64,000 nucleotides of DNA from Desulfobacterales bacterium (lineage in GTDB: Bacteria; Desulfobacterota; Desulfobacteria; Desulfobacterales; JAHEIW01), in the NCBI GenBank assembly GCA_030066985.1, contig JASJAN010000002.1, positions 186,531 through 250,530 of the forward strand, written 5' to 3'. Position numbers and translations under genes: made by a program. The notes below the pieces were generated by a model that searched no databases, was not told the origin of the DNA, and was given only the letters and a program-made list of their open reading frames with translations. This document shows, piece by piece, positions 18,919 to 28,334 of this stretch (position 1 is the stretch's first letter; each line of letters opens with the position of its first letter).

Positions 18919-18999
18919 CTCAAGATAATGCCAAACCTTGAGTAATCAGGGGACGGAAAGCCACGGGTCCGCCGGAGGTGGATGGCCGGGTTGCCTGAG
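18919..18999 (+). ncRNA. Cyclic-di-GMP-I (GEMM-I) riboswitch aptamer
   Basis: The sequence carries the hallmarks of the GEMM-I aptamer in order: GCCAAACC at 18930, GGGGACGGAAAGCC at 18949-18962, ACGGGTCC, a short variable helix with GGAGGTGGAT, and GCCGGGTTGCC at 18985-18995. CTCA (18919-18922) can pair with TGAG (18996-18999) to close P1. By alignment to the Vibrio Vc2 aptamer, the base equivalent to G20 appears to be G, favouring c-di-GMP over 3',3'-cGAMP, although one neighbouring base differs. An intrinsic terminator follows within 10 bases. Confidence 0.9.
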
Positions 19000-27086: not shown

Positions 27087-27584
27087 ATGGACACCACCGA
27101 GCGCGGAAAACTGATTCTAAAAGCAGTGCCGGCCGGAGAAGCTGAAGAAAAGGTTGTTCGGCTGCTGTTAAAATTTGCAAAAACGGCGTCCGCCATCGAA
27201 TTGACCCAGAAGGTCAGGAATCCGCCTTATGAGCTGAGCAGTGATATTGAGGCGGAAAAAGCGGCCATCTTCATCGAGGCATTTCAAAATTGTGGAGCGA
27301 CCGCCGTATTTATCCCCCACATTACCGAAAAACCGGTTCCGGAAAAACCGGCACTTGTCCAGAGTCGACCGGATTTTTCCTTTGACTCAGATCCCGCATC
27401 AGCTGGTGAAATCACACCGCCACCAATTAAGGTAAAGCCTCAAAAAAACGGCGTCCGCCGCTTAACCATGATTCTGGTAATCATCTTATTGTTGTTATCC
27501 CTTGGTTTTCTGACCTGGCAGCTCTGGCCGATTATCAGCGTTAAACTTCAAGAGATGATTCACTTCCTCAAAAACAACATTTAA
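27087..27584 (+). CDS. Tail-anchored membrane protein with an L7/L12-CTD-like N-terminal domain
   Basis: A 165-residue protein starting at 27087 (MDTTERGK), downstream of a strong promoter. The first 75 residues (KLILKAVPAGEAEEKVVRLL...ELTQKVRNPPYEL...KAAIFIEAFQNCGATAVFIP) have the pattern of a ribosomal L7/L12 C-terminal-like fold, a resemblance I judge by eye. A Pro-rich linker leads to one transmembrane helix (about residues 126-148) and a short tail. The open frame extends upstream to 27012, but that segment overlaps the promoter. Function unknown. Confidence 0.75.
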   Translation: MDTTERGKLILKAVPAGEAEEKVVRLLLKFAKTASAIELTQKVRNPPYELSSDIEAEKAAIFIEAFQNCGATAVFIPHITEKPVPEKPALVQSRPDFSFDSDPASAGEITPPPIKVKPQKNGVRRLTMILVIILLLLSLGFLTWQLWPIISVKLQEMIHFLKNNI

Positions 27585-27730
27585 AACCGGCCTTAAAAAT
27601 GCATCTAACGCCCAATGGCTGTGTTGAAAACCGATTCAAAATGCTCGAATACTAGCGTGTATGCTCCACTTTTGAATCGGTTTTCGCCTTGCCCTTGAAC
27701 GTTATCTACTATTTTTAAGACCGGTTTTTA
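27581..27730. repeat. Nested inverted-repeat element
   Basis: Outer arms at 27581-27600 and 27711-27730 match at 18 of 20 bases. An inner 16-bp perfect stem, GAAAACCGATTCAAAA at 27626-27641 with its complement at 27670-27685, encloses a 28-nt loop. Between them TAACG (27606) can pair with CGTTA (27700). It begins at the stop codon of the preceding gene, so it may also act as its terminator. The architecture resembles the two elements just downstream, but the sequence is different. Confidence 0.75.
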
Positions 27731-27804
27731 TATTAATAAATTCCAGAATAATTCGTATTTGTTAATGAAAATAAAATTATAAATTCGAAACGCTCAAATT
27801 TGGA

Positions 27805-28008
27805 ACCTAAGCTGAGCGCTTGTTGAGGTTGCTGCAGCTACACGGCAGATGCCGTTCCGCTATAGTCTACTATGCGGAATGGCATCTAACACTGCAGATG
27901 CAGTAAGATCGACAAGCCCCTTGGGGTTTCAAAATAAAAATATTAAAATGATAGAATTCCTTAAAAAAAGATCCCTCCTATTTTTATTTTGAAACGATCA
28001 GCTTAGGT
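27805..28008. ncRNA. Structured non-coding element, copy 1
   Basis: A 204-nt element closed by ACCTAAGCTGA/TCAGCTTAGGT (11 bp). Inside are P1 GCTTGTTGA/TCGACAAGC (27818, 27909), P2 TTGCTGCA/TGCAGTAA (27829, 27899), hairpin P3 AGATGCCGTTCCGC/GCGGAATGGCATCT (27847, 27874), a CCCC-TT-GGGG hairpin, and P4, a perfect 16-bp stem GTTTCAAAATAAAAAT with its complement (27926, 27980) whose loop holds GATAGAATTCCTTA. No coding frame is evident. Strand of any transcript is unknown. Comparison with copy 2 shows preserved pairing despite changed sequence, which supports selected structure. Confidence 0.8.
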
Positions 28009-28010
28009 AA

Positions 28011-28216
28011 TACTTAAAGTGAGCGCTTGTTGAGGTTGCTGCAGCTACAAGGCAGATGGTGTTCCGCTATAGTCTACTATGCGGAACGCCATCTAACACA
28101 GTAGATGCAGTAAGATCGACAAGCCCCATAGGGGTTTTAAATTTTAAAAATTAAAAAGACAGAATTCCTTATACTTTAATTAGATTTTTTAAAATTTAAA
28201 ACGCTCACTTTAAGTA
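28011..28216. ncRNA. Structured non-coding element, copy 2
   Basis: A 206-nt element three bases after copy 1, closed by TACTTAAAGTGAGCG with its perfect 15-bp complement (28011-28025, 28202-28216). P1 and P2 sequences are the same as in copy 1 (28025/28116 and 28036/28106). P3 is AGATGGTGTTCCGC/GCGGAACGCCATCT (28054, 28081), P4 is a perfect 17-bp stem GTTTTAAATTTTAAAAA with its complement (28134, 28186), and the P4 loop holds GACAGAATTCCTTA. The CCCC-ATA-GGGG hairpin is kept. Outer stem and P4 differ in sequence from copy 1 yet pair fully. It ends about 120 bp before the macroglobulin gene. Confidence 0.8.
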
Positions 28217-28334
28217 AAAGTTGTGTAAAAGATACTCTCCTAATATTGACTGCCGCAGCCGTCGCTTATAAAATTTTAGCATGAGCTTAAAAACCAACAT
28301 CCAATGCATACCAAAACAGCCGGGAGCTTATTCC

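Follow-up and report, generated by a model that had tools for sequence, protein, structure and literature searches.

Bacterial MITEs are usually seen as transposon remnants, of which the ends are the meaningful parts. Two other kinds of repeat are known for their fold: the ERIC/IRU sequences of enterobacteria are inserted imperfect palindromes of ~127 bp with an RNA-like fold, ERIC inserting at TA, and in the attC sites of integrons structure is conserved over sequence and one strand acts as the fold. The family described here, first met as a tandem pair in a Desulfobacterales genome, differs from ERIC/IRU in sequence and ends and in a duplication of 3 bp. It differs from attC sites in having terminal inverted repeats and 3-bp duplications, and no cassette genes were seen.

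The closest described systems are a MITE of Geobacter uraniireducens and a set of repeats of Bacillus cereus. Chunjie, the Geobacter element, measures 178-235 bp, and our family resembles such MITEs in size, terminal inverted repeats, short target duplications, intergenic position, lack of coding capacity and many partial copies (PMC10969869). Stable stem-loops in MITE transcripts are described in the part of that account available to us, whereas the body here is branched, with covariation and strand asymmetry, and is set apart by that description (PMC10969869). The B. cereus repeats are likewise interspersed and intergenic, and include the MITE-like bcr1-bcr3 as well as bcr10 and bcr18, which have conserved secondary structure; some bcr repeats are mobile, and some are fold-conserved and transcribed in untranslated regions (PMC3446304, PMC6542083). 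As far as the available portions of these two papers go, mobility and fold belong there to separate families of one species group, whereas here they meet in one family that reaches beyond an order (PMC3446304, PMC6542083).

The window, by which we mean the whole stretch of 64,000 nucleotides that was analysed, holds two tandem copies of ~204 nt on the + strand, at 27805-28008 and 28012-28215. They form a direct repeat, D1, in which 144 nt are 85% identical at a spacing of 207, and have a branched fold in common, in which the stem letters differ and the pairing is kept. Copy 1 folds at -86.3 kcal/mol (z -10.6) and copy 2 at -92.9 kcal/mol (z -12.6), and in neither case did any of 200 shuffles reach so low an energy. 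The features are listed below; unless another basis is given, stems are those of the RNAalifold consensus of 19 copies.

27781 to 27804, + strand: stub adjoining copy 1 on its upstream side, the 3' end of another copy (direct repeat D2 of the copy 2 3' end at 27781-27796, extended to 27804 by eye)
27805 to 28008, + strand: copy 1, full length, model positions 1-204 (cmsearch with model R1, 215.5 bits, the score of a training member)
27806 to 27818, + strand: copy 1 P0 5' arm (terminal inverted repeat), partner 27995-28007
27820 to 27826, + strand: copy 1 P1 5' arm, partner 27909-27915
27829 to 27835, + strand: copy 1 P2 5' arm, partner 27900-27906
27847 to 27865, + strand: copy 1 P3 5' arm, with one bulged base, partner 27870-27887
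27870 to 27887, + strand: copy 1 P3 3' arm
27900 to 27906, + strand: copy 1 P2 3' arm
27909 to 27915, + strand: copy 1 P1 3' arm
27917 to 27925, + strand: copy 1 small CCC-loop-GGG hairpin
27926 to 27942, + strand: copy 1 P4 5' arm, partner 27979-27995 (17 nt, 100% complementary)
27979 to 27995, + strand: copy 1 P4 3' arm (17 nt, 100% complementary)
27995 to 28007, + strand: copy 1 P0 3' arm (terminal inverted repeat)
28012 to 28215, + strand: copy 2, full length, model positions 1-204 (cmsearch with R1, 217.3 bits, again a training member)
28011 to 28025, + strand: copy 2 outer stem 5' arm (inverted repeat I4)
28054 to 28072, + strand: copy 2 P3 5' arm, partner 28077-28094 (fold of copy 2, RNAalifold consensus)
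28077 to 28094, + strand: copy 2 P3 3' arm (fold of copy 2, RNAalifold consensus)
28134 to 28150, + strand: copy 2 P4 5' arm, partner 28186-28202 (17 bp, read from sequence; fold of copy 2)
28186 to 28202, + strand: copy 2 P4 3' arm (read from sequence; fold of copy 2)
28202 to 28216, + strand: copy 2 outer stem 3' arm (inverted repeat I4)

A first-pass annotation of this DNA had described the outer stem as perfect in each copy, and it is (ACCTAAGCTGA/TCAGCTTAGGT in copy 1, TACTTAAAGTGAGCG/CGCTCACTTTAAGTA in copy 2). It had given P4 as perfect stems of 16 and 17 bp; the perfect pairing and the length in copy 2 are borne out, and the stem of copy 1 measures 17 bp as well. The changes it had listed in P3, a switch from C-G to G-C and two changes between Watson-Crick and wobble pairs, are seen in the full alignment. 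The 3'-end stub upstream, the many copies elsewhere and a second dispersed structured repeat nearby had escaped it.

Copies in other genera show how the element moves as DNA. Recent, near-identical copies there have fixed ends, with 14-nt terminal inverted repeats (ACCTAARTTGAGCG ... CGCTCARYTTAGGT), and among 72 distinct copies, of which the 69 with near-consensus ends were taken, 50 of the 69 have identical 3-bp flanks against a shuffled mean of 3.4 (4-bp identity in 1). Flank composition, read by eye, suggests a palindromic target preference near AYT-NNN-ART. In the genus of the window the 3-bp duplication is found in 5 of 31 copies (shuffled mean 1.15), the other 31 of 62 distinct copies having been dropped for diverged ends, and the copies of this genus look older than those of other genera. 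One genome, G220, gives 250 matches to an 18-nt end at up to 2 mismatches and 0 to the reversed control. Because of the inverted ends and the identical 3-bp flanks we regard the element as a MITE-like non-autonomous transposon; it has terminal inverted repeats and a target duplication fixed at 3 bp, and it is short, non-coding and dispersed in many copies. The family is thus a structured MITE, a known kind of element with an unusual body. Of the hairpin-dependent mobile element that had been one option of the first-pass annotation, the mobile part is confirmed by the inverted ends, the 3-bp target duplication and the 250 end matches in one genome, and the dependence of mobility on the hairpin has the standing of a proposal.

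Copies of the window's genus carry a further feature at their upstream side. When at least 13 of 17 letters had to match within 40 nt, a duplicate of the copy's own 3' end was found immediately upstream in 23 of the 62 distinct copies and downstream in none of them (loci L002-L030 and L061-L093, besides 27781-27804 in the window); in other genera the upstream stub occurs in 1 of 75 copies. At L062 and L069 the stub reaches ~75 nt and differs little, by eye, from the 3' end of the element itself. The mildest explanation would be that existing copies undergo tandem duplication and loss, although it is not one that we defend. Target-primed reverse transcription, considered for these 5'-truncated 3' ends, was dropped since copies of other genera show fixed ends on both sides and 3-bp duplications.

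A partial search for an autonomous element with the same ends found none among the end pairs and transposase loci examined. End pairs 0.65-3.6 kb apart in the element loci examined enclose frames that look like host genes, and ten frames scanned against Pfam (8 from end pairs, 2 from L355) matched no transposase family; nine of them had a Pfam match at E <=0.001, one of these nine below its cut-off, and a 771-aa frame in L283 had no Pfam match. No transposase was seen by eye in further stretches of G220 and G063. Transposases of PF01609 lie at 13 loci in 3 of 4 genomes, and 3 of the 13 hold a convergent degenerate end pair (<=3 mismatches), no more than the shuffled mean of 3.05; at one of these three, L324, an apparently genuine element 5' end lies ~0.7 kb from the transposase. 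PF13612, which we take to be the IS982-type transposase family, was found in 0 of 12 genomes, which do not support an origin as an IS982-derived MITE. The near-complete genome G239 has 125 end matches (100 of the 125 listed), many of which, at two mismatches, are due to chance because the reversed control gives 36. A 1.4-kb end pair in this genome encloses hydrogenase-maturation genes, and a 2.1-kb end pair lies at C6:525351-527474.

The family is widespread, with hundreds of copies in a bacterial group to which sulphate reducers belong. A DNA search of the window's own genome (assembly of 5.07 Mb in 81 contigs) scored 40 of its 48 first-look candidates and yielded 33 rows, which come down to at least 25 sense places, the other 8 being antisense echoes of the palindromic body, and a DNA search across genomes found the element in 16 of 58, own included. 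A covariance model, R1, built from 19 full copies including both window copies (204 positions, 63 pairs), matched 103 of 291 genomes of the order, own included, or about a third of the sample, with at most 8 places scored per genome under strict filters. In a sample of the phylum it matched 18 of 395 genomes, own included, 12 of the 18 lying outside the order, with best E values from 6.7e-27 to 7.6e-5. Nineteen named matches are stretches of uncultured Desulfobacterales, Deltaproteobacteria and Desulfobacteraceae MAGs. The covariance-model search that the first-pass annotation had proposed has thus turned up dispersed copies, and covariation with them. The Rfam check that it had also proposed leaves the novelty standing: at gathering and relaxed thresholds over 4227 families, no family matched in the copy region, which gave only sub-threshold, chance-level hits. 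Annotated plasmids and phages held no match to the element queries, nor did viral contigs to one exact pattern used as the query. The open-access literature on MITEs of Desulfobacter, Geobacter and Desulfobacterota, on the terminal sequence and on structured intergenic repeats yielded nothing recognisable as this family.

Relatives outside the order match R1 over all 204 positions and have other terminal letters, ACCYRRATNNTGCA-like in L344, L345, L346 and L348, with the stems, by eye, in the same order as in the family. Identical 3-bp flanks, also read by eye, border L344 (TGA), L345 (GAT) and, within the order, L351 (ATT), and not L346 or L348. Shortened forms with P0 and P4 only occur at L214 and L218. 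In some copies P2 or the small hairpin is, as judged by eye, extended or replaced by small hairpin inserts of two types, TCCGCCTNNGGCGGA and CTTGTTGGG..GAAGCCC (L012, L016, L017, L019, L020, L021, L022, L023, L024, L026, L264 and L266), the CTTGTTGGG..GAAGCCC insert standing at the same spot in copies of different genera.

Some neighbouring features of the window are recorded here in their own right. A second dispersed repeat of ~150 nt, repeat B, lies at about 27583-27728 with its core on the - strand and is present many times in the genus. Among copies the core hardly changes, whereas the terminal stem varies and mostly still pairs; in 19 rows GT outnumbers AC by 89:3, an excess to which fixed wobble columns contribute, and several copies have TA on both flanks (by eye). 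Homology of repeat B with the element through a CAAGG/AACRCAG motif beside P3 was not supported by a shuffle test using sequence only, in which the shuffles at or above the observed value, of 300, numbered 203 for copy 2, 141 for L121, 98 for L344, 154 for L345, 9 for L348, 105 for L298 and 100 for L301. Only the element nested in L292 gave 0 of 300 shuffles. It is a 0.4-kb element at L292 887-1304 (G220) with the family ends and a body of two large structured repeats (TCGTAAAAAGTC ... GACTTTTTACGA), one of them resembling repeat B beyond chance. A c-di-GMP-I-GGC riboswitch lies at window positions 18921-18999 (RF03167, 64.9 bits).

The pairing of the body has been conserved despite sequence change, as the first-pass annotation had claimed from the two window copies. 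In an alignment of 97 copies (A4), which was fitted to R1 and so leans towards its structure, 43 of 63 pairs show two-sided change against a mean of 20.3 in shuffles that leave the relatedness of the copies in place and 21-29 with slid partners; 95.6% of cells pair, and 0 of 500 shuffles reach any of five measures. Among 62 rows of other genera (A5, fitted in the same way; 58 distinct, 22 of the 62 also in A4), 25 of 63 pairs are two-sided (shuffled mean 12.3, 0 of 500 shuffles; slid partners 7-13) and 96.7% of cells pair. Recent copies have mostly kept the letters of P0, as transposon ends in general do, with 6 of 13 pairs two-sided in the 62 rows; in the 97 copies the figure is 12 of 13.

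A strand test is less exposed than these covariation counts to the model-fitted alignment and to relatedness. Wobble pairs on one strand greatly outnumber their counterparts on the other, with GT:AC of 446:90 in 87 copies and 287:22 in the 62 rows, totals that are inflated by columns where the wobble is the commonest pair; of the 60 columns in which Watson-Crick pairs are the majority, 35 contain GT and 15 contain AC. By stem, GT:AC in the 62 rows is 45:6 for P0, 55:3 for P1, 94:5 for P2, 80:5 for P3, 6:1 for the small hairpin and 7:2 for P4, and a putative extension of P2 (CTAC/GTAG) has the opposite asymmetry, with GT 1 and AC 14 in 87 copies. Loop transitions (A>G 72, T>C 69, G>A 38, C>T 9) show no matching bias, so a mutational strand bias does not explain the GT excess, and GT so far above AC argues for selection on one strand. 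The idea that the outer stem is copied target sequence was dropped on the same ground, the GT count of P0 being far above its AC count.

Orthologous sites offer a further comparison. In all 16 comparisons, several of which have a copy in common, divergence is lower at paired than at unpaired positions (for example 11/134 against 15/68). With pairing kept, 35 pairs changed on both sides and 59 on one; with pairing broken, 90 changed on one side and 11 on both, and the 90 one-sided breaks exceed both the one-sided and the two-sided changes that keep pairing. Three comparisons between copies whose P2 has been replaced account for 40 of these 90. Together, this evidence points to a body kept by selection as one folded strand, either RNA or single-stranded DNA. 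The unknown structured RNA of the first-pass annotation is therefore upheld in part, as a conserved single-strand fold with covariation, and its RNA nature is a proposal. Folded DNA tolerates G-T pairs as well, so wobble tolerance does not separate the two.

The position of the window copies invites a reading as a riboswitch or leader of the downstream gene, which encodes a bacterial alpha-2-macroglobulin, and a riboswitch-like tandem had indeed been suggested. Copies lie upstream of this gene in three species: a stub is present in all of them, with two copies in the window's own species and a single copy in each of two congeners. However, the best of four promoter-like sites (TTGACT-17-TAAAAT, 28246-28274), a weak match to consensus only in a region with 4 such sites against 2.7 in shuffles, lies between copy 2 and the gene and so downstream of both copies, with similar letters by eye in both congeners, and most family copies are elsewhere. 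In other genera, the 59 copies occur in all four gene arrangements (-+ 18, ++ 15, -- 15, +- 5, both neighbours being called by script for 53 of the 59), which argues against a common cis role, and we find a macroglobulin leader scarcely credible. In a more general host role, copies would be kept as RNA elements of untranslated regions that affect how mRNAs end, how stable they are or how they are processed, a function suggested for other structured repeats between genes. Such a role would agree with flank comparisons, by which ten sites in the genus are occupied in two, three or four species, old copies remaining in place. It would also agree with the 36 of 87 copies at loci L002-L119 (for the most part from the window's genus) whose 3' end lies -11 to +5 from the stop of a convergent script-called frame; this closeness may follow largely from insertion tolerance and the TAA in the element's own end. 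Against a host role, copies of other genera stand in all four contexts with stop closeness in 12 of 59, and the orthologous macroglobulin site holds 2 copies in one species and 1 in each of two others, which makes such a role improbable.

Two further readings concern the folded strand itself. The element might move as folded single-stranded DNA, a strand being excised or copied, its ends forming the terminal stem, and a structure-specific recombinase or transposase joining it to the target, as for attC or IS200/IS605 ends. This would account for the paired changes in P0 (12 of 13 pairs in the 97 copies, 6 of 13 in the 62 rows), for wobble tolerance on one strand and for a structured body in a DNA element. 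However, both the 3-bp duplications and the preference for a palindromic target speak for a staggered cut through the two strands of the target and, to our knowledge, attC and IS200/IS605 insertions leave no target duplication; we consider this route unlikely, if worth keeping in view. Alternatively, the fold could be a by-product, with long inverted arms made or kept perfect by arm-to-arm copying (hairpin-templated repair) and no selection on pairing. P4 would fit, as it changes mostly by whole base-pair replacement with few wobbles (GT 7 and AC 2 in A5; many UA/AU and AU/GC swaps), as would the minimal hairpin derivatives L214 and L218. Yet such copying predicts equal decay to GT and AC, whereas GT far exceeds AC in P0-P3 and the loops lack a matching mutation bias. 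A by-product is largely refuted for P0-P3, and as an account of the whole we hold it to be quite improbable.

We therefore return to a mobile, MITE-like family whose interior has been selected as a branched fold of one strand, the fold serving the family's own spread, and we consider this reading probable. The element would be a non-autonomous MITE-like DNA transposon of ~205 nt with 14-nt terminal inverted repeats (ACCTAARTTGAGCG) and a 3-bp target duplication, presumably moved by a transposase acting in trans. In its folded strand, P0 would close a junction from which the long P1-P2-P3 arm, the small CCC/GGG hairpin and the P4 arm extend. Since copies are found in every gene context, and since the fold has lasted across genera of the order and even in some genomes outside it, its most likely use is the spread of the element itself and not any service to neighbouring genes. 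As to the form of the strand, we lean slightly towards a + strand RNA transcript over an intermediate of folded single-stranded DNA.

A 63-pair branched fold, kept by compensatory change in many genera and with wobble mainly on one strand, means that the body of this MITE matters. More tentatively, and with more doubt than conviction, we suggest that a widespread class of transposons, recognised by terminal inverted repeats and target duplication, may need a non-coding folded single strand for its own mobility, either as RNA together with a transposase in trans or as a single-stranded DNA fold presenting paired ends to the transposase. With this family it can be tested directly whether structured nucleic acid takes part in transposition or in controlling how MITEs spread.
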